The notes beneath the pieces were generated by a model, which made no database searches, had not been told where the DNA came from, and saw only the letters and a program-made list of their open reading frames with translations. The position numbers and the translations under genes are program-made. 37,469 nucleotides of DNA from an uncultured Opitutia bacterium (GTDB taxonomy: Bacteria > Verrucomicrobiota > Verrucomicrobiia > Opitutales > Opitutaceae): the NCBI GenBank assembly GCA_903900845.1, contig CAIUOU010000099.1:1-37469 (forward strand), given 5' to 3'. Each line of letters begins with the position of its first letter. Position 1 is the first letter of the stretch. Shown here piece by piece: positions 4,757 through 18,160 of the stretch.

Positions 4757-7700
4757 ATGCAAACGCCTTCCCGCGTCTCTGACCGCACCCGTAGGGTGCG
4801 CCGCCTACTGTCGCTTCTGGTCGCCTTGGCCCTGCCGCTCGCCCTCGGCGCCGCCGACTCCGGCGGCACCATCACCGGCACGGTGAGCAACAACGCCACC
4901 GGCAACAATCTGGAGGGCGCCCGCGTCGAGATCCCGCGGCTCGGCCTCTCGGTCCTGACAAACAATTCAGGCCAGTATGTCTTCATCGGCGTGCCCGCAG
5001 GCGACCATGAGCTGGTCGCCACCTACATCGGCCTGGATCTGGCCAAGGCGACGGTCTCGGTCGCCGCGGGCGCGCGGCTGGTGCGCAACTTCGACATGAC
5101 GTCCGGCATCTACAAGCTCGAAGCCTTCAAGGTCACCGGCGAGCGCGAGGGCAACGCGGCGATGATCACCGAGAAACGCAACGCCGACAACGTGAAGGAC
5201 GTCATCGCCATGGATTCCTTCGGCTACCTGCCGAACATGAGCGCCGGCGAAGTCGTGATGCGTCTGCCCGGTGTCGCCGGCAGCCCCACGGTCGAGGGTC
5301 TGAACTACCAGTTCAACGTGCGCGGCATGCCGCCCGGCCTGAACAACGTGACGGTGGATGGAATGACGATGAGCACCACCGGCGCCGGCAGCCGCGCGTT
5401 CGAGTTGCAGGGTGTCACGGGCGCGATGTTCGAGGGTTTGGAGCTCGTGAAGGGCCACACGCCCGACAAGGGTGCCGACTCGCTGGGCGGCACCATCAAT
5501 TTCAAGTCGCGCTCGACCTTCAGCATGAAGGAGGACCACCGCACGACCTACAATTTCAGCACGCGCTGGGCGCCGCCGTTCTTCGAGCAGACGCCGATCC
5601 GTTCACAACACCGCGCGCATCCGATCCTCAATCTGACGCACCAGCAGGTGTTCAGTGTGTTCGGCGACCAGCGTAATCTCGGCGTCTCGCTCAATCTCTT
5701 CTACAGCGAGAACGCCGTCGGCGGGTTCTACACCCTGTACGATTACGTCAATGTCCCGGAGGGACCGGCCCCGATGCGGCAGTACGAGGTTTACGACAAC
5801 ACCAACAACCGGAAGCAGATGAGCGTGAACTTCAAGGCGGACTACCGTTGGTCGCAGGAAACGAAGTTTTCCCTCACACTGCTGGAGAACGATAATTTCG
5901 AACGGCACCGCCGGCGTCCCCTCATGCGCGCTTTCGCCGGCGCCCAGGGGACCCAGCCGAGCGCCTCGACCGCCTATCTGCCGGGAACCTTCACGGACAC
6001 CGTCACGGCGATTCGCCCGGTGCCCAACAACTCGATGATCGAGGTGATCAGCGACGGTCCGTTGAACTACAACTTGCGCATGCGCCGCGTCGACTTCATG
6101 GGCGAGCACAACTACCGGAACTGGAACATCGAATACGGCGCGAGCGCCACCGAGTCCCACCTGAACAACGGGCAGGGCCGCGGCGGTGTCATGGCGATGC
6201 GGTTTTTTGACCCCGCGTTGCAGACCCCCGGTGCGCCGGTCGTGTTCGGCAATGCCGGCTGGGTCATCGATCGAACGGCCTCCGCCACGTATCCCAGTTT
6301 CCGCCGCAACGGCGGGGCGGACTTCACGAATCCCAACAACTATCTTCCGCGCGCCACGGACGGCCTGACCCAGCAGCGGAATGAGAGCGACCAGTTTGGG
6401 TACCAAACCCGTTTCGACATTCGCTACAAGACCCCCTTGGCGGCACCGACCTTCCTCAAGGTCGGAGGTGCCTGGCGGGAGACCACCCGTGACGAGTGGG
6501 GCAAGGACCGCCACCGTTGGCAATTCGCCGGCTCGCTGCGCTACGACCCGAGCCTTCGCCTCGCTCACGATCCGAACTACCGCAGCCACATCGGGGAGAA
6601 GACAGGCCTCGGGATTCCCATGTGGCAGTCCTCGATGCACACCGTGGATGGCTGGCCCAAGGATCCGGCGCTTTGGGTCGAGGATCATTATTTCCGGGAG
6701 CAATCCAAGTTCACCGCCACCAGCCAGGTCATCGAGGAGGTCACGGCCTACTACGCGATGGTGAACGGGCGGCTCGGTCGGGAGGGCTGGCTCGGTCGCA
6801 CCGGCTATCTCGGTGGCGTGCGCTGGGAGGACACCCGGACGAAGGGCAACGGTTGGGTGCGCGCCCGCACCCTGAGCACGACGGCGCAGCAGCTGGCGGA
6901 TCCGGTCGGCTCGGCGCAGCGCGACTACGCCAACACCCGCCGGATCATCGAGGGCGCCTACAGCGACCTCTACCCGAGCATCCATGCCTTTCACGATATC
7001 ACCCCGAATTTGAAGGGCCGCGTAAGCTGGTCCACCAGCTTCGGCCGTCCCGATATCTCCAACATGCGGCCGGGCGAAACGGTCGACGAGGTCAACCGCC
7101 GACTCACGGTCAACAACCCCGGCTTGAAGCCCCAGACTTCGAAGAACTGGGACGCTACGCTCGAGTACTACTTCGAGCCCGTCGGCAGCCTCACGCTCGG
7201 TTGGTTCCACAAGTCGATCGAGGACTACATCGTCACCGGGCAGGATGTGGGTCTGATCCCGGGCGGCCGGGACAACGGCTATGACGGTGAATACGAGGGT
7301 TTCATGGAGCGCACGTCGCTCAACTCCGGCACGGCGATCGCCCAGGGCTGGGAGTTCGCCTACCAGCAGCAGTTGACGTTCCTGCCGGGTCTCCTCCGGG
7401 GCCTGGCTGCTTCCTTCAACTACTCCTGGATCGAGACGCACGGACTGCGCGGCGGCACCCGCTACCTGACGCGTCGTGAAGTCGCCGGCTTCATCCCGCA
7501 TTCCGCCAACGCGTCCCTGCGTTGGAGCCATCGCGGCTTCAGTGTGCGCGCCCTCTACAATTTCACCGGGGAGTACATCACCTCCTTGAGCGCCATCACG
7601 ACTCCCGGGCTGAATCTGTACCGCTACTCGATGAAGACCCTGAACGTCGGCGTTAGCTACCAGTACAAGCCGACCCTCGGTTTCTCGGTCGATATCGCCA

Positions 7701-7807
7701 ACCTGTTCAACGAACCGCAGGAGTTTTACATGGGTAACAAGAACCGGTTCCGCCAGGGCATCACCAACTTCGTCACCGTCGCCGTCGGCATGAACGGCCG
7801 CTTCTGA
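4757..7807 (+). CDS. TonB-dependent receptor, first of a tandem paralogous pair
   Basis: The open frame extends further upstream, but the ATG at 4757 is chosen because it gives a canonical signal peptide (MQTPSRVSDRTRRVRRLLSLLVALALPLALGAAD). The protein has 1016 residues. A CarboxypepD_reg-like domain (GTITGTVSNNATGNNLEGARVEI) runs to about residue 115. It is followed by a TonB-box-like YKLEAFKVTGEREGNAA, then the plug (NADNVKDVIAMDSFGYLPNMSAGEVVMRLPGVAG; LELVKGHTPDKGADSLGGTINFKSRS), then a long beta-barrel ending GMNGRF. It is closely similar along its whole length to the next gene (shared NADNVK, VKGHTPDKGADSLGGTIN, LGVS.NLFYSENAVGG, RLSWSTSFGRP, YYFEPVG), so the two arose by tandem duplication. 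A strong terminator at 7833-7859 ends its transcript. The substrate is unknown. Confidence 0.93.
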   Translation: MQTPSRVSDRTRRVRRLLSLLVALALPLALGAADSGGTITGTVSNNATGNNLEGARVEIPRLGLSVLTNNSGQYVFIGVPAGDHELVATYIGLDLAKATVSVAAGARLVRNFDMTSGIYKLEAFKVTGEREGNAAMITEKRNADNVKDVIAMDSFGYLPNMSAGEVVMRLPGVAGSPTVEGLNYQFNVRGMPPGLNNVTVDGMTMSTTGAGSRAFELQGVTGAMFEGLELVKGHTPDKGADSLGGTINFKSRSTFSMKEDHRTTYNFSTRWAPPFFEQTPIRSQHRAHPILNLTHQQVFSVFGDQRNLGVSLNLFYSENAVGGFYTLYDYVNVPEGPAPMRQYEVYDNTNNRKQMSVNFKADYRWSQETKFSLTLLENDNFERHRRRPLMRAFAGAQGTQPSASTAYLPGTFTDTVTAIRPVPNNSMIEVISDGPLNYNLRMRRVDFMGEHNYRNWNIEYGASATESHLNNGQGRGGVMAMRFFDPALQTPGAPVVFGNAGWVIDRTASATYPSFRRNGGADFTNPNNYLPRATDGLTQQRNESDQFGYQTRFDIRYKTPLAAPTFLKVGGAWRETTRDEWGKDRHRWQFAGSLRYDPSLRLAHDPNYRSHIGEKTGLGIPMWQSSMHTVDGWPKDPALWVEDHYFREQSKFTATSQVIEEVTAYYAMVNGRLGREGWLGRTGYLGGVRWEDTRTKGNGWVRARTLSTTAQQLADPVGSAQRDYANTRRIIEGAYSDLYPSIHAFHDITPNLKGRVSWSTSFGRPDISNMRPGETVDEVNRRLTVNNPGLKPQTSKNWDATLEYYFEPVGSLTLGWFHKSIEDYIVTGQDVGLIPGGRDNGYDGEYEGFMERTSLNSGTAIAQGWEFAYQQQLTFLPGLLRGLAASFNYSWIETHGLRGGTRYLTRREVAGFIPHSANASLRWSHRGFSVRALYNFTGEYITSLSAITTPGLNLYRYSMKTLNVGVSYQYKPTLGFSVDIANLFNEPQEFYMGNKNRFRQGITNFVTVAVGMNGRF

Positions 7808-7832
7808 CGCGCCGCCTACGTCGGTCACTTCG

Positions 7833-7859
7833 GGCCCGGCCTCACCGCCGGGCCTTTTT
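7833..7859 (+). terminator. Rho-independent terminator after the first tandem receptor
   Basis: A perfect 8-bp stem GGCCCGGC (7833-7840) pairs with GCCGGGCC (7847-7854) around a 6-nt loop CTCACC, followed directly by five T residues (7855-7859). It lies 25 nt after the stop codon at 7807. This suggests that the two tandem receptors are separate transcription units. Confidence 0.88.
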
Positions 7860-7944
7860 CGTCTCCGGGTGTTTCGCGCTCGCGAACGCGCGCGGGATTT
7901 TTTGAGTTGGGACGGCGCGGGGATTTTTCCCGCCGCTCAACCCC

Positions 7945-10902
7945 ATGAAATCGTACTCCCGCCGTCGTTCCCTGCTGCTGTCTTCCTCCTTGATGGGGCT
8001 CGCGTTTGCGCTGCTCTCTCCGGCCGCCGTCCGCGCCGCCGCGGCCGGGTCGGGAACCATCGCCGGCACCGTCAGCAACGCCGCCACCGGCAACCTGCTC
8101 GAGGGCGCCCGGGTCGCCGTGCCCGTCCTCGGCGTCGACGCGCTGACCGACAACACCGGCCTCTATGTGCTCTCCAATCTTCCGGCCGGCTCCCATGAGC
8201 TGGTCGTCTCCTACATCGGTCTCGATCCGGTGCGGGCCTCCGTCGCCGTCGCGGCCGGCCAGCGCGCTTCGCGCAACTTCGACCTGACGACCGGCATCTA
8301 CCAGATGCAGGAGTTCCGCGTCACGGGTGAGCGCGAGGGTGGCGCTGCCGCGATCACGGCCCAGCGCAACGCCGACAACGTGAAGAACATCGTGGCCATG
8401 GACTCTTACGGCAATCTCCCGAACATGAACGCCGCCGAGGTCGCCATCCGCCTGCCGGGTGTCGCGGGGAACTTCGGCGACGAGAATCTCGTCGACGGGT
8501 TCACGGTGCGCGGCATCGGCCCGGGTCTCAACACCATCACCCTCGACGGCTCGCCGCTCACCAGCCAGGGCGCGCTCTCCCGCAGCACCAACATCAACAA
8601 CCTCACCGGCACGATGTTCGACCAGCTCGAGTTGGTGAAGGGCCACACGCCCGACAAGGGCGCGGACTCGCTCGGCGGCACCATCAACCTCCGCAGCCGC
8701 TCCCCGCTCTCGATGCGCGAGAAACGCCGCGTCTCGTACAGCGCGGGCGTCCGCTGGGCGCCGCCGTTCCTGGAGCACATCCCGCTTCGCGAGGCCCACC
8801 GTTCGCACCCGATGCTCAACGCTCAATGGCAGGAGGTCTTCGGTGTGTTCGGCGGCGACCGTAACCTCGGCGTCTCGATGAATCTTTTCTACAGCGAGAA
8901 CGCGGTCGGCGGCTACCAGACCGTGCGCGACTTCGAGAACACCGTCAGCCGCCCCGCCTACGTCTGGGACTACCGCACGTGGGACAATTACAACAACCGG
9001 AAGCAGCTCAGCCTGAACCTCAAGACCGACTACCGTCTCTCCACCAACACCAAGCTTTCGATCAACACCGTCCTCAACAACGCCAACGAGACGTTCCGCC
9101 GCCAGTACCAGACCCGGGCCTACACCGGCACGCAGACCACCGTGCCCAACGCCACCACCACCGGCGTGGTCCCGGGCTACACCGATCTCATCACCACCGT
9201 CCGCCCGGTCGCCGCCGCCATCATCGAGCAGCAGACCACCGGCCCGGGTAATTTCTACAACCGCATGCGACGTCTCGATGTCGGCGCCGAGCAGGTCTTC
9301 GGCCGCCTGCAGCTCGACTACAACGCGGTCTTCACGCAGACCAACATCAACGGCGGCAGCGGCGGCCGCGGCGGCGTGCTCATCAACCGCCTGACCGGTG
9401 CCGGCTGGATCCTCGACCGCACCGAGTCCGACCTTTTCCCGCGTTTCCTGCGTAACGGCGGACCCGATTTCACCGACCCTTCGAACTACCGGCCCACGCA
9501 GTACACCAACACCATCCTGCAGAACAACAACGTGCGCCGCGAGGTGCGCGGCAACGCCCGCTACGAGTTGCCCACGTCGTTCCCGTTCTCGCTCAAGACC
9601 GGCGCGAACTGGCGCTCGCAGTACGCCGACAACCAGAGCGTGTCACGCCGCTGGAGCTACACCGGGACCGCCGCGCTCCCGTCCGATCCCTCCATCGTTT
9701 CCTTCGACCAAATCAAGACCGGGCGGCGCATGCCCTACTGGGAAAACGTCCAGTTCTTTGTCGACCGCCGGCCGGTCACCCCCGCCTCGTGGCGCGAGGA
9801 CCTTTATTATTCCTATCAGAACAACTACACCGGCAACCGCGCCGTGAACGAGTGGGTCACCGCCGGCTACGGAATGGCCCAGGCCCGCTTCGGCCGCACC
9901 TCCCTGCTCGGCGGCGTCCGCACCGAGCGCACCGAGACCGAGAGCTGGGGCTACGTCCGCTCCCGCTCCGGCAGCACCGCCGCCCAGCAGACGGCCGATC
10001 CCGAGGGCTCCGCCAACCGCGACTACGCCGGCACCCTCCGCAAGCTGCGCGGCGACTACACGAAGTCATTCCCGAGCGTTCACGTCGCGCACGACGTCAC
10101 CGCCAACGTGAAGGCGCGCCTCAGCTGGTCCACGAGCTTCGGCCGTCCCGCGCTCAACAACGCGATGCCCAACGAGACCGTGAACGAGACGAACCAGACC
10201 CTCACGGTGAGCAACCCGTCCCTCCTCCCGCAGTCCGCCGTGAACTGGGACGCGTCCCTCGAGTATTACTTCGAGCCCGTCGGTAACCTGTCGGTCTCGT
10301 GGTTCCGCAAGAGCATCCGCGATTACATCATCACCGGCACCAACGTCGGCACGGTTTCTTCCGGCAACGACAACGGATTCAACGGCGAATATTCGGGTTT
10401 CACCTTGTTGTCCTCCTCCAACGCCGGCACCGCCACGGTCAACGGCTGGGAGTTCGCCTATCAGCAGCAGTTCACTTTCCTGCCAGGTCTGCTCAAGGGG
10501 CTCGGGGCTTCGCTCAATTACACCCTGCTCGAGGCTTCCGGGAACTTCGGCGGCGCGACCAACCGCGAAACCAACCAGGTGCCGGGTTTCATCCCGCGCA
10601 CCGCCAACGCCAGCCTCTCGTGGCGCTACCGCAAGTTCAGCACCCGCGTGCTCTACAACCACGTGGGTTCGTACATCACCAGCTACAACGCCACGAGCCC
10701 GGGCTACAGTGCGTACCGCTTCGCCTACCGCACGGTGAACTTCGGCGTCGCCTGGCAGTTGCGCCCGGCCGTCCAGCTCACCGCCGACGTTAGCAACCTC
10801 TTGAACGAGCCGCAGCGCACCTACCGCGGTTTCAGCGACCGCATGTCGGGCACGATCATCAACGGCACCTCACTCTCGTTTGGCGTGAACGGGCGGTTCT
10901 GA
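7945..10902 (+). CDS. TonB-dependent receptor, second of the tandem pair
   Basis: The protein has 985 residues. The start at 7945 gives a signal peptide (MKSYSRRRSLLLSSSLMGLAFALLSPAAVRAAAA). The domain order matches the preceding gene: CarboxypepD_reg-like (GTIAGTVSNAATGNLLEGARVAV), TonB-box-like (YQMQEFRVTGEREGG), plug (NADNVKNIVAMDSYGNLPNMNAAEVAIRLPGVAG; VKGHTPDKGADSLGGTINLRSRS), then a beta-barrel ending SFGVNGRF. The plug is the most conserved part between the two paralogs. The external-loop regions (for example around residues 330-420) differ, as expected if the copies recognise related but different ligands. No clear Shine-Dalgarno sequence precedes the ATG. The substrate is unknown; by family it could be oligosaccharides or metal chelates. 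Confidence 0.93.
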   Translation: MKSYSRRRSLLLSSSLMGLAFALLSPAAVRAAAAGSGTIAGTVSNAATGNLLEGARVAVPVLGVDALTDNTGLYVLSNLPAGSHELVVSYIGLDPVRASVAVAAGQRASRNFDLTTGIYQMQEFRVTGEREGGAAAITAQRNADNVKNIVAMDSYGNLPNMNAAEVAIRLPGVAGNFGDENLVDGFTVRGIGPGLNTITLDGSPLTSQGALSRSTNINNLTGTMFDQLELVKGHTPDKGADSLGGTINLRSRSPLSMREKRRVSYSAGVRWAPPFLEHIPLREAHRSHPMLNAQWQEVFGVFGGDRNLGVSMNLFYSENAVGGYQTVRDFENTVSRPAYVWDYRTWDNYNNRKQLSLNLKTDYRLSTNTKLSINTVLNNANETFRRQYQTRAYTGTQTTVPNATTTGVVPGYTDLITTVRPVAAAIIEQQTTGPGNFYNRMRRLDVGAEQVFGRLQLDYNAVFTQTNINGGSGGRGGVLINRLTGAGWILDRTESDLFPRFLRNGGPDFTDPSNYRPTQYTNTILQNNNVRREVRGNARYELPTSFPFSLKTGANWRSQYADNQSVSRRWSYTGTAALPSDPSIVSFDQIKTGRRMPYWENVQFFVDRRPVTPASWREDLYYSYQNNYTGNRAVNEWVTAGYGMAQARFGRTSLLGGVRTERTETESWGYVRSRSGSTAAQQTADPEGSANRDYAGTLRKLRGDYTKSFPSVHVAHDVTANVKARLSWSTSFGRPALNNAMPNETVNETNQTLTVSNPSLLPQSAVNWDASLEYYFEPVGNLSVSWFRKSIRDYIITGTNVGTVSSGNDNGFNGEYSGFTLLSSSNAGTATVNGWEFAYQQQFTFLPGLLKGLGASLNYTLLEASGNFGGATNRETNQVPGFIPRTANASLSWRYRKFSTRVLYNHVGSYITSYNATSPGYSAYRFAYRTVNFGVAWQLRPAVQLTADVSNLLNEPQRTYRGFSDRMSGTIINGTSLSFGVNGRF

Positions 10903-10916
10903 GGAAGGTCTTCCCG

Positions 10917-12074
10917 TTAGATCCCGTCGCCCGCCGTGAACGCCAGCTGCACGTCCAGCGGCCGGCGCCGGTTCTCCTCCGCGTAGGCCTCCATGTAGAG
11001 GCTCCACGTCCTCGGGTCCGCGAATTCCGCCTGGGAGTTCGTTCCCGGTTTCACCCGCACGCTGATCGGGCGCACCACGTTGATCAGGTAACCGAGGTTG
11101 TCGGGATTGTAGTCAAAGGGTTGGGACTCGCCGCGGCCGGAGTGCGCGCGGGAGAGGATCTCGTAGTCACCGGGCGCCGTGACGGTCCACAACGCCTCCC
11201 ACTGCCGCCAGCTGTACGGTTGGTCGATGCCCTTGAGGTGCGCCGCCTGCCACGTGCGCCCGCCGTCCGTGCTCACGTCCACGCGGCTCACGCCGGCCTC
11301 GCCCGCCCACGCCACGCCCGCGATGCGCAGCGTGCCCGCGCCCACCGCGGCGCCCGCCGGCGGCGTGAGCACCTCGCTCTTCACCGAGCCCGGCCCGAGC
11401 GGCTGGCGCCGGCCGTCGCGGATGATCGCGTACTTCTTCGTCTGGAAGTAACCTTGGTAGGGCTGGTCGGTGACCCGCATCGTGCGGAGCCACTTCACCG
11501 AGGCGACGCCGTACCAGCCGGGCACGAACAGCCGCAGCGGCGCGCCGTGGTTCGGTTCCAGCGGTTCGCCGTTCATCCGGAGCGCGACGAGGGTGTCGGG
11601 ATGCAGGGCCTTTTCGAGCGGCAGGCTGCGGGAAAAATTCATCTGGTGGCCGTCCTCCTCGCCGTGGTCCGCCCCTTCGAAGATCACCTCGGTCGCCGCC
11701 GCTTTCACGCCTGCCGGCTCCAGCAGGTCGCGCAGCCGCACCCCCGTCCACTCGGCATGCCCGATCGCGCCCGCTCCCCATTGCACCCCCGCCGCCTTCT
11801 CCTTGAGGAACGAGCGGCCGTTGCCGGCGCACTCCACCGTGGCGAACACGCTGTGCTGCGGCATCGCCTCCAGCTGCGCCAGCGTCCAGCGGCCCGGACG
11901 TGTCACGAGGCCCTCGAGGTTGAGTTCCCACGCCCGCGCTTCTCCCGCGGCCGGCGGCTCGAAATGGTTGCGGACGAAGAACAGCCGGTTCGGCGTGACC
12001 CAGCTGGGCACGTGCTCGAGGGGCGTCTCGCTGTTCTCCGGACCTGAGGTTACGATCCTGCGCGCGGCGTTCAT
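10917..12074 (-). CDS. Sulfite oxidase-family molybdopterin oxidoreductase
   Basis: The protein has 385 residues from ATG 12074. The frame stays open for a further 115 codons upstream, but that stretch reads like non-coding sequence and homology begins after 12074. Residues about 45-230 form the oxidoreductase molybdopterin domain. C82 in ATVECAGNGRS is the expected molybdenum-coordinating cysteine, and GAPLRLFVPGWYGVASVKWL is the conserved cofactor/substrate segment. The C-terminal part (GVAWAGEAGVSRVDVSTDGGRTWQAA...YSWRQWEALW) is the Ig-like dimerisation domain. No heme domain, Tat motif or signal peptide is visible, so it is probably cytosolic or uses an unannotated partner, unlike periplasmic SorA or YedY. 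Whether the substrate is sulfite cannot be settled. It converges with the tandem receptor (stop codons 14 bp apart). Confidence 0.87.
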   Translation of the reverse strand: MNAARRIVTSGPENSETPLEHVPSWVTPNRLFFVRNHFEPPAAGEARAWELNLEGLVTRPGRWTLAQLEAMPQHSVFATVECAGNGRSFLKEKAAGVQWGAGAIGHAEWTGVRLRDLLEPAGVKAAATEVIFEGADHGEEDGHQMNFSRSLPLEKALHPDTLVALRMNGEPLEPNHGAPLRLFVPGWYGVASVKWLRTMRVTDQPYQGYFQTKKYAIIRDGRRQPLGPGSVKSEVLTPPAGAAVGAGTLRIAGVAWAGEAGVSRVDVSTDGGRTWQAAHLKGIDQPYSWRQWEALWTVTAPGDYEILSRAHSGRGESQPFDYNPDNLGYLINVVRPISVRVKPGTNSQAEFADPRTWSLYMEAYAEENRRRPLDVQLAFTAGDGI

Positions 12075-12503
12075 GGCGCGAGGTTGGTTGCCCGTCCCGG
12101 GACCGGCAAACGGTATTCCGTCTAAAAGTCGAAGCTTGGCGACCGACAGGCTCGTCGAGGTGAAGGGCGCGGCTCCGAGCCGTTGCACGGAGGAAACGCG
12201 GAGGGTTCTAGGCCGGAGACTCGACGGAAAGCCCGAAGCGCGGAGTTTGGCCCGCGGACCAGAGACAGGGCGCAGAATGTAAGCTCGCCGGCGCGTTTTG
12301 CGCCTTTGGGCGGCCAAATGACCCATGGCCGCGAAGAGACGCAAGAGGCGCAAAACCGAGAAGGGGAGGGGAATCCACGACTCTCGGTCGCCGCCACTTT
12401 CTCCGTCATTGCCATTCACCTTTCCTCATCCCTCGCCCCGCGCCGAGCGAGTCGCGAGGAAAGATTCGCCCCGCGTGCGGCCGGCTGTTTCCTCGGTTTT
12501 GAG
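12075..12503. other. 429-bp non-coding stretch upstream of the D-amino-acid-type operon
   Basis: No convincing gene is seen between the divergent starts at 12074 (minus) and 12504 (plus). Open frames cross it on both strands but show no domain or natural protein composition. It holds the long inverted repeat listed at 12295-12356 and presumably the promoters of both flanking units; no convincing -35/-10 pair stood out. Confidence 0.6.
12295..12356. repeat. Long imperfect extragenic inverted repeat
   Basis: GTTTTGCGCCT (12295-12305) is the exact reverse complement of AGGCGCAAAAC (12346-12356). Nested inside, GCGGCCA and TGGCCGC form a second 7-bp arm around a 9-nt centre (AATGACCCA). The right half (ACGCAAGAGGCGCAAAA) resembles the 'CGCAAAGACGCAAAG' type of extragenic sequence I recall from many environmental genomes. 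That resemblance is from memory and was not searched. Confidence 0.6.
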
Positions 12504-12971
12504 ATGAACACCCCCGAGCAGAACCTCGCGCGCCTGCAACTCGTGCTGCCGCCCGCCCCGCGCCCTGTCGCCGTGTACCGGCCGCTGGTCGTCGTGCAGG
12601 GGCTCGCCTACGTGTCCGGTCACGGGCCGGTTTGCACTGACGGCTCGCTCATCCGCGGCCGCGTCGGCGCCGACCTCGACCTCGTTGCGGGCCACGCCGC
12701 CGCTCGTCAGGTCGGCCTCGCCATCCTCGCCACGCTCCGCGACCAGCTGGGTTCGCTCGATCGTGTCCAGCGTGTCATCAAGCTCCTCGGCATGGTGAAC
12801 TCCGCGCCCGATTTCCTCGAGCACCCGAAGGTCATCAATGGCTGCAGCGAGCTTTTCGCCGAGGTGTTCGGAGCGGAGCGGGGTATCGGCGCCCGTAGCG
12901 CCGTCGGCATGGGTCCGCTCCCGGGAAATATCGCCGTGGAAATCGAGGCCATCTTCGAGCTCGCGCCATGA
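12504..12971 (+). CDS. RidA-family enamine/imine deaminase
   Basis: The protein has 155 residues and ATG 12504 is the start consistent with family length. It is a YjgF/YER057c/UK114-like fold: VVVQGLAYVSGHGPV near the N-terminus and the C-terminal GARSAVGMGPLPGNIAVEIEAIF, whose Arg corresponds to the substrate-carboxylate-binding Arg of RidA. It belongs to the longer 'YjgF_endoribonuclease-like' subgroup rather than classical 128-residue RidA. RidA proteins hydrolyse reactive 2-aminoacrylate-type enamines released by PLP-dependent dehydratases. It is the first gene of a five-gene operon, and its stop overlaps the start of the PLP enzyme by 4 nt (ATGA), so the pairing is likely functional. It probably scavenges the enamine made by that enzyme. 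Confidence 0.86.
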   Translation: MNTPEQNLARLQLVLPPAPRPVAVYRPLVVVQGLAYVSGHGPVCTDGSLIRGRVGADLDLVAGHAAARQVGLAILATLRDQLGSLDRVQRVIKLLGMVNSAPDFLEHPKVINGCSELFAEVFGAERGIGARSAVGMGPLPGNIAVEIEAIFELAP

Positions 12972-14077
12972 CGCCCGCCTGGATGCGGCTCGCCGATGAG
13001 TCCGCCGCCCCTTCCCCCGCGCTGCTGGTTTTCCCCGATCGCATCGAGGAAAACCTCCGCCGCATGATCGCCCTTGCGGGCGGCCCGCAGCGGCTGCGGC
13101 CGCATCTGAAGACCCACAAGTTGCCGCAATTGATCGCGCTTCAGGCGCGCCTCGGCATCACGCGCTGCAAAGCGGCCACCATCGCTGAGGTCGAGATGGC
13201 CGCCGGCGCCGGCGCCACCGACATCACGCTCTCCACCCAGCCCGTCGGACCCAACGCCGCCCGGCTGGTCGCCCTCATCCGCGCGTTCCCTTCGGTCGCC
13301 TTCTCGACGATCGCGGATGACCCCGACGCGGTCGACGCGCTCGCCCGCGTCGCCGCCGAAGCCGGGGTCGTGGTCGAGGTGCTGGTCGATCTCGACGTGG
13401 GCATGGCCCGCACCGGGATCGCCCCCGGACCGGAAGCCGCGCAACTGTACCGCCGTATCGCCGCCGCGCGGTCGCTTCGTCCGGGTGGCCTCCACGCCTA
13501 TGATGGACACTTGCGCCAACCGTTGCTCGCCGACCGCATTGCGGCCGCCGCCGGTGGCATCGCCCGGGTCGATGACCTTGCCGCGGCGCTCCGCGCCGAG
13601 GGCCTGCCGGTGCCGCGTCTCGTGTGGGGAGGCACGCCGACGTTCCCAGTCCACGCCCGCCGCGCCGGCATCGAGTGCAGCCCGGGCACCTGCGTTTTAT
13701 GGGACGCCGGCTACGAGCGTAACATCCCCGACCTCGAGTTTCTCCACGCCGCCGTGCTGCTGACGCGCGTCATCAGCCGTCCCGGTGCCGGCCGGCTGTG
13801 CCTCGACCTTGGACACAAGGCCGTGGCAAGCGAGATGGCGCACCCGCGCGTGGTCTTTCCCGAATTGCCCGACGCCCGCGCGGTCACCCACAGCGAGGAA
13901 CATCTCGTCCTCGAGACGTCCGCGGCGGACAAGTTTCCCGTCGGTTCGGCGCTTTACGGCATTCCGTGGCACATCTGCCCGACCGTCGCGCTGCATGACC
14001 GCGTGCAGGTGGTGCGCGAAGGCCGCGTGGCGGAGACATGGACGGTGACCGCGCGAGCGCGGCGGTTGGGAGTCTGA
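12968..14077 (+). CDS. D-serine dehydratase / D-threonine aldolase-like PLP enzyme
   Basis: The protein has 369 residues. It shows an alanine-racemase-type N-terminal TIM barrel with RPHLKTHK (residues 44-51), where K48 is the expected PLP lysine, then EVEMAAGAGATDI and VDLDVGMARTGI. The C-terminal DSD1-type domain carries H335-x-C337 in IPWHICPTVAL. In characterised relatives this position is the metal site: as I recall, His/Cys binds Zn in eukaryotic D-serine dehydratase, while D-threonine aldolase has His/Asp. That favours a dehydratase acting on D-serine, 3-hydroxyaspartate or similar, but substrate assignment by homology is weak in this family. Its start overlaps the RidA stop, and a GntP permease begins 5 nt after its stop. 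It is cytosolic. Confidence 0.88.
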   Translation: MTPAWMRLADESAAPSPALLVFPDRIEENLRRMIALAGGPQRLRPHLKTHKLPQLIALQARLGITRCKAATIAEVEMAAGAGATDITLSTQPVGPNAARLVALIRAFPSVAFSTIADDPDAVDALARVAAEAGVVVEVLVDLDVGMARTGIAPGPEAAQLYRRIAAARSLRPGGLHAYDGHLRQPLLADRIAAAAGGIARVDDLAAALRAEGLPVPRLVWGGTPTFPVHARRAGIECSPGTCVLWDAGYERNIPDLEFLHAAVLLTRVISRPGAGRLCLDLGHKAVASEMAHPRVVFPELPDARAVTHSEEHLVLETSAADKFPVGSALYGIPWHICPTVALHDRVQVVREGRVAETWTVTARARRLGV

Positions 14078-14082
14078 TTCCC

Positions 14083-15405
14083 ATGTCGACGCCACTGCTC
14101 CTCGCTCTGGCGGCGATCGCGCTGCTCGTGGGACTGGTGACATGGCTGCGGGTGAACGCCTTCGTGGCGCTCCTGGCGGCCGCCCTGCTGGCCGGGATTG
14201 GATCGGGGCTGGCACCGCTCGCTGCCCTGAAGGCTTTTCAGGATGGGGTGGGCGCCACGCTGGGCGGCATCGCCGCCGTGATCGCGCTCGGCGCGATGAT
14301 CGGCCGCCTGCTTGCGGAGTCAGGCGGCGCGCTGGTGCTCGCGGAGCGTCTGGAATCCTGGTTCGGCGCCGGCCGCGCGCTCCTGTGCGTCGTGGTGCTC
14401 GGCCTCGTCGTCGGGCTCGCGACGTGGTTCACCGTCGGTTTGCTGCTGATGGTTCCGGTGGCCGCCTCGCTGGCCCGTCGCACCGGACGGCCGTTCCTCA
14501 CGCTGGCGCTGCCGCTCGTCGCGTTCCTATCCGCGATGCACGGGCTGACGCCGCCGCACCCGGGCCCCGTCGTCGCGATCGACGCGCTGGGCGCGAGTCC
14601 GGGCGCGGTGCTCGCGCTCGCGTTCGTCGTCGCGATTCCGGCCGCGCTCCTCGCCGGTCCGGTGTTTGCACGATGGGTCGCGCCGCGGATCGACGTCCCG
14701 CCGCCCGGGCCGGCGGAAACGTCCGGGCCGGCGGTGGGACGTCCCGGCTTCGCGGCGACGGCCGGCGTGATCGCGCTTCCGGTCGGCCTCATGCTGGCCA
14801 ACTCGACGGGGGAGCTTCTGCTGCCGGCGGGTGGCGCGGTCCGCGGTGCGCTGGCGTTCGCCGGGCATCCCGTGACCGCTTTGGTGGCGGCGCTGGTGTT
14901 CGCAGCGATGGTGTTCGGCCGCGCGGCGCCGTTTTCCCGGGCGCGCCTGCTCGAGTTCACCGAGCAGAGCGTGGCGGCGATCGGCATGACGCTGCTGGTG
15001 GTGGGGGCCGGGGGCGGATTTGCGCGCGTGCTCCGGGAGGCGGGTGTCGCCGAAGCGCTGGGCGGGGTGGCCGGCGCCGCGAACCTGTCGCCACTTATCT
15101 ACGGCTGGCTGGTCGCGGCGTTCATCCGCGTGGCCACGGGGTCGGCGACCGTCGCCATCACAACGGCGGCCGGCCTGCTCGCGCCCATGCTCGCGACCCA
15201 TCCGGAGGTGAACCGCAACCTTCTCGTGCTCGCGCTCGGTTCCGGCTCGCTGGTGCTCTCACATCTCAACGACGGCGGTTTCTGGATCGTGCGCGACTGC
15301 CTCGGTCTCACGGTCGGCCAGACGCTCCGGACCTGGTTCGTGCTCGAAACCATCCTCGGGGTCGCCGGCCTCGGGTTCGTACTGCTGCTTTCTCTGGTGC
15401 TCTGA
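14083..15405 (+). CDS. GntP-family permease (gluconate/D-serine type)
   Basis: The protein has 440 residues. ATG 14083 is preferred because it gives a membrane-embedded N-terminus (MSTPLLLALAAIALLVGLVTWLRVNAFVALLAAALLAG); an upstream ATG at 14038 lies inside the previous gene. The whole sequence is hydrophobic, with about 12-14 helices and conserved GntP segments such as FQDGVGATLGGIAAVIALGAMIGRLLAESGGA, HGLTPPHPGPV, RVATGSATVAITTAAGLLAP and LSHLNDGGFWIV. GntP members are H+ symporters for gluconate and related acids, and the family also includes the E. coli D-serine transporter DsdX. Next to a D-serine-dehydratase-like enzyme and RidA, a D-amino-acid substrate is more likely than gluconate, but this is inference from context. 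Confidence 0.93.
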   Translation: MSTPLLLALAAIALLVGLVTWLRVNAFVALLAAALLAGIGSGLAPLAALKAFQDGVGATLGGIAAVIALGAMIGRLLAESGGALVLAERLESWFGAGRALLCVVVLGLVVGLATWFTVGLLLMVPVAASLARRTGRPFLTLALPLVAFLSAMHGLTPPHPGPVVAIDALGASPGAVLALAFVVAIPAALLAGPVFARWVAPRIDVPPPGPAETSGPAVGRPGFAATAGVIALPVGLMLANSTGELLLPAGGAVRGALAFAGHPVTALVAALVFAAMVFGRAAPFSRARLLEFTEQSVAAIGMTLLVVGAGGGFARVLREAGVAEALGGVAGAANLSPLIYGWLVAAFIRVATGSATVAITTAAGLLAPMLATHPEVNRNLLVLALGSGSLVLSHLNDGGFWIVRDCLGLTVGQTLRTWFVLETILGVAGLGFVLLLSLVL

Positions 15406-15407
15406 CC

Positions 15408-16496
15408 ATGAAACATCCCCTGATTGTCGACGCCCACCTCGACCTCGCGATGAATGCGATCGAGTGGAACCGCGACCTCACTCGGCCGCTCGCCGAGATT
15501 CGCGCGGCCGAGGCGCACTTGCGCGACAAACCGGACCGCGGCCACGGCACCGTGTGCCTGCCCGAGATGCGGCGCGGACACGTGGGCCTTTGCGTCGCCA
15601 CGCAGATCGCGCGGCTGGAGCACGACGCCTACAGCCCGGTCTTCGGCTGGCGGTCTTCGGCGCAGGCTTGGGCGATGACCCAGGCGCAACTGGCCTGGTA
15701 CCGCGCGATGGAGGAGGCGGGGGAGATGGTGGCGATCCGCGACCGCGCCGGCCTCGACGCCCATGTCGCGCGCTGGGAGGCGGCTGATGACGCCGTGGCC
15801 GCCAAGCTGCCGGTCGGTTTCATCCGCAGCCTCGAGGGCGCGGACTCGCTCATCACGCCCGCGCACCTCGAGCGCGCGTGGGCCGACGGTTTGCGAGCGA
15901 TCGGCCCCGCGCATTACGGCCCCGGGGTCTACGCGCAGGGGACCGGTACGACGGGGCCGTTCCCGGAGCGCGGCCGTGAGCTGCTGCGTCTGGCCGGCGA
16001 ACTCGGGCTGATCCTTGACGTGACCCATCTCAGCGACGAGTGCCTCTGGCAGGTGATCGGGCTTTATCGCGGCCCGGTCTGGGCAAGCCACCACAACGCC
16101 CGCGCCCTCGTGCCGCACCAGCGGCAGTTGGCGGACGACATGTTCCGCGCGCTGGTGGCCCGAGACGCCGTGGTGTGTGTCTGCCTCGACGGCTGGATGA
16201 TGACGCCCGGTTGGGAACGTGGGAAAACCACGCCCGCCTCGGCGGGTCTCACGCTCGCGCGGCTTGCCGACCACATCGACCATTGGTGTCAGCTGGCGGG
16301 CAACGCCCGGCACGTCGGTCTCGGCAGCGACCTCGACGGTGCGTTCGGCACGGAACAGACGCCCGCGGACCTAGGCTCGATCGCGGACCTCGCGCAACTG
16401 CCCGGAATTCTCCTGGGACGCGGTTACGCCGACGCCGACATCGCCGGCATCATGGGCAGCAACCTCCGGCGTTTTCTCGCCTCGGCCCTGCCGTGA
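15408..16496 (+). CDS. Membrane dipeptidase-family (peptidase M19) enzyme
   Basis: The protein has 362 residues from ATG 15408, 2 nt after the permease stop. The M19 metal ligands are visible: D8-A-H10-L-D12 at the N-terminus, the bridging Glu in SLEGADS, His in DVTHLSDE, His in WASHHNARAL, and Asp in GLGSDLDGAFG. The C-terminal IAGIMGSNLRRFL is also typical. No signal peptide or anchor is present, so this is a cytosolic bacterial relative. M19 enzymes hydrolyse dipeptides and tolerate a D-residue at the C-terminal position, and several bacterial members act on L-D dipeptides. In this operon it would release a D-amino acid for the PLP enzyme. Its TGA overlaps the ATG of the next gene (TGATG). 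Confidence 0.92.
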   Translation: MKHPLIVDAHLDLAMNAIEWNRDLTRPLAEIRAAEAHLRDKPDRGHGTVCLPEMRRGHVGLCVATQIARLEHDAYSPVFGWRSSAQAWAMTQAQLAWYRAMEEAGEMVAIRDRAGLDAHVARWEAADDAVAAKLPVGFIRSLEGADSLITPAHLERAWADGLRAIGPAHYGPGVYAQGTGTTGPFPERGRELLRLAGELGLILDVTHLSDECLWQVIGLYRGPVWASHHNARALVPHQRQLADDMFRALVARDAVVCVCLDGWMMTPGWERGKTTPASAGLTLARLADHIDHWCQLAGNARHVGLGSDLDGAFGTEQTPADLGSIADLAQLPGILLGRGYADADIAGIMGSNLRRFLASALP

Positions 16497-18160
16497 TGAC
16501 TTCCCGGACTGGTAACGAAGCACGGGGCGCGGCCGCGGGCCGGGCCGCGCTGGCGGTGGCCTGGGTTCTCGTGGCGGCGGCGGTGGCGGGCGCGCGCGAG
16601 GATTCGGCGACGCGCGGGCGCGAGCTGTACGAGCGCAACTGCCTGCAGTGCCATCAGGCCAATGGCGCCGGCGTGCGGGGGATCTTTCCGCCGCTGGCCG
16701 GCCGGGAGTGGTCGGCACGCGAGATCGAGCGCGCGATCCGCGTGGTATGCGAGGGCGCGGCGGGCCCCGTCACGGTCAACGGTGTCACCTACGACGGAGT
16801 GATGCCGCCGGTTGTGCTCGGAGACGGTGCGATCGCCGAGGTGCTTACCCATGTGCTCAACAGCTGGGGTAACCCCGGCGGGCGGGTGACGGGCCGGCAG
16901 GTGCGCGAGGTCCGCGCGACCACGAAGTACCCCACGGCGGAACGCCAGGCGCTCGCGATGGAGTATCCGCCGCTGCCGCCTGCGCCGGCGGGGTTCACGT
17001 TGCGCGAGGTGGCGCGGCTGCCGCAGAAGGCGGTGCGGATGGCGAGCGACGGTACCGGCCGGGCGATCCTCCTGCTTTCGGAGAACGGCGACGTGCGCCG
17101 GCTTGACCTTTCGACGGGTGCGATCCGCCCGCTGTTTCTCGCGAAGGATTATCTCAAGCGGCGCGAGGGCGACCTCGGCGGCCCGTTGTTTGTGCTGGCG
17201 ATGACCTTTGACCGGCGCGGCCGGCTGCTGATCGCCGCCAACCAGCAGAACGCCGCGGTGAAGCCCGCCGTGAACACCGTCACGATCTACCGCACGACCC
17301 GCCGCGACGCGGACGGCTCGCCGGTCGAGCCGCGGCCGTGGTTCGAGGAAAGTTACCCGGGTCGTCCGTCGTACATCCACGCGGTCGAGCACATGGCGAT
17401 CGGGCCCGACGGCATGCTGTACGTCGGCAACGGGGCGCGCACCGACGGCGGCTTCTCCGATCCCGAGGGACCATTCGCCGGGGGCGGCGAGACGCCGCTC
17501 ACGGCCTGCCTCTGGCGGCTCGATCCCGAGGCGGAGAAGCCGGAGATCGAGGTCTACGCGCATGGGATCCGCAACGCCTACGGGTTCTGCTGGAACGACC
17601 GGGGCGAGATGTTTCTCACCGAGAACGGACCCGACGCGGACGCGCCGGAGGAGCTCAACCTGATCGAGCGCGGCCGCCACTACGGATTTCCCTATCAGTA
17701 TGCCGACTGGGACCGGAAGGCCTACGAGCGCACGCCCGATCCGCCCGCGGGATTGAAGTTCACGAAGCCGATCCAGAACCTCGGGCCGGATGGGGGATTC
17801 AACGGCTCGCCGGTCGCGACGTTCGACCCGCATTCGTGCCCGGGCGGCATCGTGTTTCTCGGCGACGACTTCCCCGAGGGCTACCGCGGCACGTTCATCA
17901 TCCCGCGCTTCGGCAACATGATCCGCACGCCCGGCGACGCCGCCGGCTTCGATGTGCTGCGGGTCACGCTCTCCCGCGGTGTGGCCGGCGATTACCAGGC
18001 GCGCGTACACACGTTGTTGAAGCCGCTCGGCCGGCCGATCGACGTGCTTCTCGCCGGGCGCGGGCGCCTGCTAATCCTCGAATACTCGCGCGGCGTCAGG
18101 AACGGAGCCTCCTATTCCCCGCCGGGGCGCGTACTTGAGCTGGCCGTGGCGAATCCCTGA
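16496..18160 (+). CDS. Exported cytochrome c-sugar dehydrogenase (PQQ-type beta-propeller) fusion
   Basis: The protein has 554 residues; the start at 16496 overlaps the dipeptidase stop. A hydrophobic N-terminal export segment (AALAVAWVLVAAAVAG) precedes a class I cytochrome c domain with C49-L-Q-C52-H53 and a likely distal Met in DGVMPPVVLGD. The remainder (about 165-554) is a glucose/sorbosone dehydrogenase-like beta-propeller: GPDGMLYVGNGARTDGGF, YAHGIRNAYGFCWNDRGEMFLTENGPDADAPEELNLIERGRHYGFPYQ, and SCPGGIVFLGDDFPEGYRGTFIIPRFG. It should be periplasmic and pass electrons from a PQQ-dependent oxidation to the respiratory chain; PQQ binding and substrate are inferred. Why it ends a D-amino-acid-type operon is unclear: it may oxidise a product, or the operon may serve an amino sugar or glycopeptide. 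Confidence 0.88.
   Translation: MTSRTGNEARGAAAGRAALAVAWVLVAAAVAGAREDSATRGRELYERNCLQCHQANGAGVRGIFPPLAGREWSAREIERAIRVVCEGAAGPVTVNGVTYDGVMPPVVLGDGAIAEVLTHVLNSWGNPGGRVTGRQVREVRATTKYPTAERQALAMEYPPLPPAPAGFTLREVARLPQKAVRMASDGTGRAILLLSENGDVRRLDLSTGAIRPLFLAKDYLKRREGDLGGPLFVLAMTFDRRGRLLIAANQQNAAVKPAVNTVTIYRTTRRDADGSPVEPRPWFEESYPGRPSYIHAVEHMAIGPDGMLYVGNGARTDGGFSDPEGPFAGGGETPLTACLWRLDPEAEKPEIEVYAHGIRNAYGFCWNDRGEMFLTENGPDADAPEELNLIERGRHYGFPYQYADWDRKAYERTPDPPAGLKFTKPIQNLGPDGGFNGSPVATFDPHSCPGGIVFLGDDFPEGYRGTFIIPRFGNMIRTPGDAAGFDVLRVTLSRGVAGDYQARVHTLLKPLGRPIDVLLAGRGRLLILEYSRGVRNGASYSPPGRVLELAVANP

Follow-up and report, generated by a model that had tools for sequence, protein, structure and literature searches.

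What substrate requires a RidA-family protein, a pyridoxal phosphate (PLP) enzyme, a GntP-family permease, and an M19 metallohydrolase encoded back to back? The question is raised by positions 12,504 to 18,160 of contig CAIUOU010000099.1 from an uncultured Opitutia bacterium of the Verrucomicrobiota (assembly GCA_903900845.1), whose whole analysed stretch of 37,469 nucleotides is called the window here. The first four genes form a conserved unit in which RidA, the PLP enzyme, and M19 are the core and GntP is a frequent fourth member, and this cassette is conserved yet modular. Its chemistry is probably an amide cut, a dehydration, and a deamination, while the substrate class that we tentatively prefer is an N-substituted 2-amino-2-deoxy-aldonate, that is, a glucosaminate-like compound.

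A gene set shared by two phyla

Relatives of the window PLP enzyme with 38–93% identity were found in 72 loci of Verrucomicrobiota, Bacteroidota, Planctomycetota, Spirochaetota, and Acidobacteriota by means of peptide patterns taken from this enzyme, and the set is therefore biased to its relatives. The loci (numbered L below; related genomes are numbered G) are related to one another, so that all counts refer to non-independent events, and four pairs of rows have identical sequence (L009/L105, L065/L106, L008/L099, and the window/L104). Genes in the relatives are stop-to-stop frames chosen by homology or by the GC content of third codon positions, with no gene finder. The nearest locus (L004), with a PLP enzyme 93% identical to that of the window, belongs to a metagenome-assembled genome (MAG) of Verrucomicrobiota, and Opitutaceae MAGs come next.

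RidA lies directly upstream of the PLP gene in 48 of 69 loci with sufficient DNA, and for 31 of 58 loci M19 follows on the same strand, being counted anywhere within the locus, up to 5.7 kb away (L021). Among 56 loci scored for both neighbours, 25 have RidA and M19, 13 RidA only, 4 M19 only, and 14 neither; these neighbour counts omit L073, which has no complete PLP frame, and score RidA of L011 as absent though it is present. GntP occurs in 15 of 47 loci, namely in 15/25 with M19 versus 0/22 without it. Besides the window, at least 30 of the 72 loci (contig ends cut loci) combine RidA, the PLP enzyme, and M19, at least 18 of these 30 also have GntP, and all of them belong to Verrucomicrobiota or Bacteroidota. 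In Planctomycetota, the PLP enzyme stands alone, and in the single Treponema locus it is paired with RidA. As to gene order, GntP stands after the PLP gene in Verrucomicrobiota and before RidA in Bacteroidota. The Parabacteroides distasonis record lists a gluconate:H+ symporter, DUF4833, RidA, a D-threonine aldolase (D-TA) family enzyme, and a membrane dipeptidase, the last three of which are also listed for Hymenobacter volaticus. The original prediction of a D-amino acid or D-dipeptide catabolic operon was to be given up if no synteny existed outside this genome; synteny was found in two phyla, so on this point it was not refuted.

At the genome level, a cassette-type PLP enzyme (at least 270 bits) is encoded in 16 of 38 related genomes, the host genome included. 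Eight of the 16 have RidA at least 58% identical to that of the window immediately upstream, and four have it on another contig (G007, G015, G017, and G031), with both the RidA and PLP genes of G007 located at contig edges. GntP is adjacent in 8/16 genomes, and M19 is inside the cassette in 8/16.

Other arrangements of these genes were also seen. A PhzF-family isomerase gene is located upstream of RidA in L036 (2651–3601) and five other Bacteroidota loci. In an alternative layout (L048, 4667–9180; L130, 6179–10996; L132, 3517–8319), a glutamate-1-semialdehyde-aminomutase-like class III aminotransferase is followed by an EamA carrier, the PLP enzyme, and M19, and L132 adds a RidA-family gene upstream. 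Locus L125 (G023, 7167–11905) bears RidA, GntP, M19, and then a 401-aa weakly glutamate-racemase-like protein, without the PLP gene. In Treponema (L064, 2352–9690), the RidA–PLP pair and a D-aminoacylase-like gene adjoin transglycosylase, LysM, and aminopeptidase-like genes.

Proteins of the cassette

Judged from its sequence, the PLP enzyme carries a metal site of the dehydratase type. The metal ligands are His347 and Asp349 in D-threonine aldolase and a His and a Cys in chicken D-serine dehydratase, according to a published account (PMC4401734). The His-x-Cys pair was read in 70 of 73 frames (HIC in the window) and His-x-Asp in two (L002 and L069), one frame being unreadable; the 51 RidA-linked frames comprise 50 with His-x-Cys and one unreadable. 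Neither His-x-Asp gene has RidA or M19 adjoining, L002 being a paralog in the host genome, and many His-x-Cys enzymes are likewise without RidA. In overall similarity, the window enzyme is slightly nearer to D-threonine aldolases: it scores 195 bits with 4v15 versus 135.7 bits with the chicken enzyme (3anu), and its model (pLDDT, the predicted local distance difference test, 93.4) matches 4v15 with Z 41.2 and a root-mean-square deviation (rmsd) of 2.2 over 355 residues versus Z 38.2 and 2.4 over 351 residues for 3anu. These structure comparisons, like those of M19 below, are a re-ranking of Foldseek matches. Chicken D-serine dehydratase and D-threo-3-hydroxyaspartate dehydratase (3wqc) have the same fold and the same His-x-Cys motif as the window enzyme, at approximately 26–30% identity in structural alignment, but the window enzyme belongs to a clade of its own with a YDGH motif. 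At the column of AxDTA His193 it lacks a His, but the loop there contains a gap, and in many relatives a His stands just one column before.

A tree of 53 rows has a branch with 100/99 support between, on one side, the cassette clade with two sister enzymes (from Bradyrhizobium and Paraburkholderia) and, on the other, BhcC, a rhizobial group, and the His-x-Asp enzymes; the cassette clade alone has a support of 92/89. The sister enzymes share both His-x-Cys and YDGH with the cassette clade. With the BhcC model NF045642, the window enzyme scores 136.6 bits against a cut-off of 690 (294.1 bits for the L002 paralog), and its identity as BhcC or as a His-x-Asp aldolase was ruled out by this score, the His-x-Cys site, and the tree. 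The sister enzymes (L141, 3927–6029; L142, 3961–6511) adjoin D-glutamate-cyclase-like genes, and RidA is adjacent in L142 and 4.7 kb off in L141. The rhizobial D-TA family group (L143, 2143–5957; L144, 2242–6050) has His-x-Cys without YDGH and is found in neighbourhoods with sugar-ABC-transporter and MurR/RpiR genes.

The window Rid protein is putatively Rid1-like and, by alignment, has the catalytic arginine. Its Arg131 corresponds to Arg105 of E. coli RidA; the position is occupied by Arg in 17 of 18 aligned rows, by Trp in YjgH, which matches what is described for Rid7 (PMC4433059), and by Arg in at least 95% of 51 sequences. PA0814 and ACIAD3089, the second and fourth of six PDB matches, are classed as Rid1 in another study, where their deaminase activity on several imines and their rescue of a Salmonella ridA mutant are reported (PMC5619798). 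These two are among the best matches and share the catalytic Arg, and in comparison with them the window protein is linked through its gene order to a single kind of PLP enzyme. By supplying a Rid1-like protein with a conserved candidate partner, the cassette would make its cellular role testable.

The M19 enzyme matches the family model PF01244 with 148.8 bits (cut-off 26). Across 33 M19 sequences with at least 52% identity to that of the window, E143, H207, H228, R239, and D308 are invariant, and H10 and D12 are kept in at least 90%; their roles, including those of metal ligands, are assumed from the alignment and from renal dipeptidase. The model (pLDDT 89.9) is nearest to 3fdg (Z 38.6, rmsd 2.2 over 314 residues), with 3ly0 at Z 38.2 and Sco3058 (3itc) at Z 37.2, and rows 1–16 of the matches span at most 3 Z units. 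The dipeptidases 3fdg/3ly0, Sco3058, and Lmo2462 have the same fold and aligned His, Asp, Glu, and Arg residues, but identities are 18–26% (structural alignment, 17 M19-like rows), and the window clade has its own invariant motifs. Such modelled matches fit an L-D dipeptidase, without proving one. Tandem pairs of distant M19 relatives were seen in L133 (G037, 5647–7874) and L134 (G028, 5992–8341). On a Deinococcus ficus plasmid (L146, 829–7438), genes for serine hydrolases, a MurR/RpiR regulator, and an amidohydrolase accompany an M19 relative with 34% identity; together they may form a cluster for the salvage of D-peptides or cell wall.

The permeases were compared as a set of 26 cassette proteins, L019 being omitted (367-aa frame). 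The best E. coli match is GntT or IdnT for all 26 and DsdX for none, and the window permease scores 277 bits with IdnT, 261 with GntT, and 228 with DsdX. The DsdX model NF007395 gives 236.5 bits against a cut-off of 618, and the broad gluconate:H+ symporter family model TIGR00791 gives 365.3 bits against 292.75, which is no proof of substrate. In the permease tree, 10 Bacteroidota sequences are sister to GntT and IdnT within a 100/99 clade that also holds GntP; 16 Verrucomicrobiota sequences form a second clade (100/99), joined to the former at 98/94. Long branches with weaker forks place DsdX, GntU, and YgbN away from the cassette side of the tree. According to the E. coli annotations, GntT is for gluconate, IdnT for idonate, 5-ketogluconate, and gluconate, GntP for fructuronate, and GntU for gluconate. 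The DsdX class was ruled out by the model score, the best paralogs, and the tree position. Stray permeases of the cassette clades were found in G002 and G018, where the neighbouring genes gave no clear lead.

Carriers of other families are seen where GntP is missing beside M19. A major facilitator superfamily (MFS) protein adjoins M19 in L127–L129 (G011, G012, and G013; 73–81% identical, one orthologous group counted as one case), and in L018 one is located downstream, besides GntP; the best model for these MFS carriers is a D-galactonate transporter, below its cut-off. The carrier near the cassette in L058 is an SSF protein. The best model for the EamA protein of L048 is a carboxylate/amino acid/amine transporter, again below cut-off. 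By their sequence matches, the carriers listed first suggest sugar acids, and those of the EamA family would fit amino acids better.

As to the families named in the original prediction, domain matches bear out all five: RidA, the PLP enzyme, GntP, M19, and cytochrome c/GSDH. The predicted RidA enamine deaminase keeps the imine-deaminase arginine and has Rid1 proteins among its best PDB matches, the DSD1-type PLP enzyme has the metal site of D-serine dehydratase, and the M19 dipeptidase family is upheld by the model score, the retained metal-ligand motifs, and nearest solved relatives that include complexes with L-X-D-Ala mimics. A permease of the DsdX type, offered there as GntP/DsdX, has to be dropped, given the low score, the nearer IdnT and GntT, and the branching of DsdX outside.

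Candidate substrates and rival explanations

We infer the individual reactions, the serial action of M19, the PLP enzyme, and Rid1, and the substrate as follows. A carrier would import a small hydroxy-carboxylate, whose amide bond would be cleaved by the cytoplasmic M19 metallohydrolase to give a D-configured 3-hydroxy-2-amino acid. Next, the dehydratase, dependent on a metal and PLP, would strip the 3-hydroxyl to produce an enamine, and Rid1 would accelerate enamine/imine hydrolysis to a 2-oxo acid and ammonia, sparing other PLP enzymes. In the window, the exported sugar-dehydrogenase-like cytochrome encoded by the fifth gene could form the acid in the periplasm. The amino-aldonate class is preferred because most carriers seen are of the sugar-acid type; the recurring GSDH-type proteins behind M19 and the parallel with the ong cluster also speak for it. 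It is a rather doubtful further step to see here the kinase-free opening of a pathway by which two phyla use N-substituted 2-amino-aldonates, composed of a gluconate-type carrier, M19 as an amino-sugar-acid amidase, a His-Cys dehydratase, and Rid1 paired with an enzyme of its own. If true, this amidase would be a new M19 activity, and the aldonate stage would be built from a carrier and an amidase different from those of the ong pathway considered below.

Several observations weigh against the amino-aldonate reading. The solved M19 relatives bind dipeptide mimics, the titles of 3ly0 and 3s2j naming L-Ala-D-Ala and L-Leu-D-Ala mimics, and GntU, a gluconate carrier, lies outside in the permease tree like DsdX, which makes tree position an imperfect guide to substrate. 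The carrier between the aminotransferase-III and PLP genes of L048, L130, and L132 is of the EamA family, and L125 has its weakly glutamate-racemase-like gene. A single tight pathway is called into question by 4 of the 16 genomes with the PLP enzyme (G002, G013, G018, and G020), in which RidA at least 58% identical to that of the window was not found. M19 and the PLP enzyme each occur without the other; M19 (E<1e-160) is encoded in 13 of 38 genomes, four of which are without a cassette-type PLP enzyme (G003, G011, G012, and G023). The contig has no kinase for the expected product, 2-keto-3-deoxygluconate (KDG): of nine PfkB matches in the host genome, none is on contig C99. Neither LPMO_10 nor GH20 was found in this genome (0 matches in a 4.4 Mb draft, 95.98% complete), which makes oxidised chitin improbable as a source in this bacterium. 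Finally, OngC of the ong cluster is likened to the cassette PLP enzyme by its described role, not by sequence.

Some of these points agree with a D-dipeptide route, as in the original prediction, in which the carrier imports L-X-D-Ser or L-X-D-Thr (or free D-amino acids), M19 cuts the dipeptide, the dehydratase yields 2-aminoacrylate or 2-aminocrotonate, and Rid1 converts these to pyruvate or 2-oxobutyrate and ammonia. We regard it as somewhat unlikely. The His-x-Cys site shared with chicken D-serine dehydratase and the L-X-D-Ala mimics bound by the M19 fold neighbours speak for it, as does the deamination of 2-aminoacrylate by Rid1 proteins, reported in PMC5619798. Pyruvate would require no additional enzyme, amino-acid-type genes are found nearby (EamA with aminotransferase III, the glutamate-racemase-like gene, PhzF in the six Bacteroidota loci), and D-glutamate-cyclase-like genes adjoin the sister enzymes. 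However, the permeases are nearest to GntT and IdnT, that of the window scores far below the DsdX cut-off, a galactonate-type MFS protein adjoins M19 in other loci, and the fifth gene is left without a role. Should the substrate be a D-serine or D-threonine peptide, the cassette would give Verrucomicrobiota and Bacteroidota, the gut species Parabacteroides distasonis among them, a route for D-amino acids.

Other explanations loosen the link between the genes. Since the parts occur in many combinations, as the counts for the 56 loci show, separate scavenging functions with one promoter and no common substrate might have been assembled here; this is improbable in our view, for GntP is found only with M19 (in related, not independent, loci), and two permease clades occur in two gene orders. 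It is still less probable that M19 is a dehydropeptidase releasing the enamine for Rid1, with the PLP enzyme acting on a separate substrate. Renal dipeptidase has dehydropeptidase activity, and in G023 (L125) Rid1, GntP, and M19 stand side by side with no PLP gene, while in G003 they lie close together, but in the 72 loci, a set found by the PLP enzyme, M19 is mostly accompanied by this enzyme, all three genes occurring in 30. The least credible of these alternatives, and very unlikely, is an aldolase function, with cleavage of a D-3-hydroxy-amino acid into glycine and an aldehyde and with Rid1 as a general protector. The slightly higher overall similarity to D-threonine aldolases (4v15 versus 3anu) is outweighed by the His-x-Cys site and the 100/99 branch that separates the cassette clade and its sisters from BhcC and the His-x-Asp enzymes; the His missing from the AxDTA His193 column may argue in the same direction for the window protein, uncertainly for the clade, and an aldolase would yield no enamine for Rid1. 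The cassette leads from two enzyme clades, one of M19 and one of dehydratases, to a single question of substrate that can be checked.

The locus and its known parallels

Coordinates of the features are collected in the table below. The RidA and PLP genes overlap by 4 bases, the gaps before GntP and M19 are 5 and 2 bases, and the M19 and cytochrome c–GSDH genes overlap by 1 base; re-derivation of the coordinates, overlaps, and gaps thus agrees with the predicted five co-directional, tightly packed genes. In a promoter scan of the locus, a sigma-70-like site was not found, and terminator-like sites numbered 4 versus 2.7 in shuffled sequence. Upstream of the cassette lie a TonB-dependent receptor gene (7945–10902, +) and, between the two, a gene for a sulfite-oxidase-like molybdopterin enzyme (10917–12419, −); both neighbours are retained in L004.

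Features of the cassette in the window
Feature	Position	Strand	Basis
RidA family protein, Rid1-like, 155 aa	12504–12971	+	PF14588/PF01042
Arg131 codon of the Rid protein, aligned with E. coli RidA Arg105	12894–12896	+	alignment
Fold-type III PLP enzyme, D-TA/D-serine dehydratase superfamily, 369 aa	12968–14077	+	PF01168 + PF14031
His335-Ile-Cys337 of the PLP enzyme, putative metal-site motif of the dehydratase type	13970–13978	+	sequence comparison
GntP-family permease, nearest to IdnT/GntT among six E. coli paralogs	14083–15405	+	PF02447
M19 metallohydrolase, 362 aa, cytoplasmic by eye (no signal peptide seen)	15408–16496	+	PF01244
Accessory cytochrome c + GSDH protein, export judged probable by eye	16496–18160	+	PF00034/PF13442 + PF07995

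The fifth protein is probably exported, as judged by eye from its N-terminus. In a tblastn search of the loci set, its relatives adjoin the cassette only in L004 and L005, and full-length relatives with 43–47% identity are located on non-cassette contigs in 16 of 38 genomes, the host genome having a second copy on contig C14. In L012, L038, and L073, the gene after M19 encodes a GSDH-type protein of another kind, with the cytochrome part seen only in L012. A GSDH-type, sugar-dehydrogenase-like protein behind M19 thus recurs without being core. The fifth gene is regarded as accessory because its relatives are mostly away from the cassette; its core membership was rejected, and its predicted place within the conserved route is not retained.

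A published description of the RidA/PLP/M19/GntP set was not found in open-licence full-text literature, as judged by titles and abstract starts. In the E. coli dsdCXA system, a GntP-superfamily permease is encoded beside a D-hydroxy-amino-acid deaminating enzyme, as in the cassette, but the cassette permease is not of the DsdX type, and the dsd operon is without a Rid or M19 gene. DsdA is of a different PLP fold.

The closest characterised parallel found is the ong cluster, and by analogy the cassette would work like ong without being a member of it. Its description (PMC9537276) assigns this cluster of Pseudoalteromonas prydzensis to N-acetyl-glucosaminate (GlcNAc1A) catabolism, where OngB removes the acetyl group of N-acetyl-glucosaminate and OngC the amino group of glucosaminate; a strain deleted for the RidA gene ongD no longer grows on GlcNAc1A. 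The succession of roles is the same: a carrier, an amide hydrolase, a fold-type III PLP deaminase of a D-3-hydroxy-amino acid, and a growth-essential RidA. Set against ong, the cassette has GntP instead of an SSS carrier, M19 instead of an OngB-type D-aminoacylase, and no KDG kinase on the contig; no MurR/RpiR gene was noted in the cassette, and the genome is without the LPMO_10 and GH20 matches mentioned above. OngB-like proteins do occur near related enzymes: a D-aminoacylase/PRK09061 amidohydrolase gene (176.4 bits, cut-off 340) follows the RidA–PLP pair in Treponema L064, and in L062 an OngB-like amidohydrolase gene is next to the PLP gene on the opposite strand. If the substrate is indeed an amino-aldonate, the cut–dehydrate–deaminate logic of marine Gammaproteobacteria exists elsewhere with other carriers and other hydrolases.

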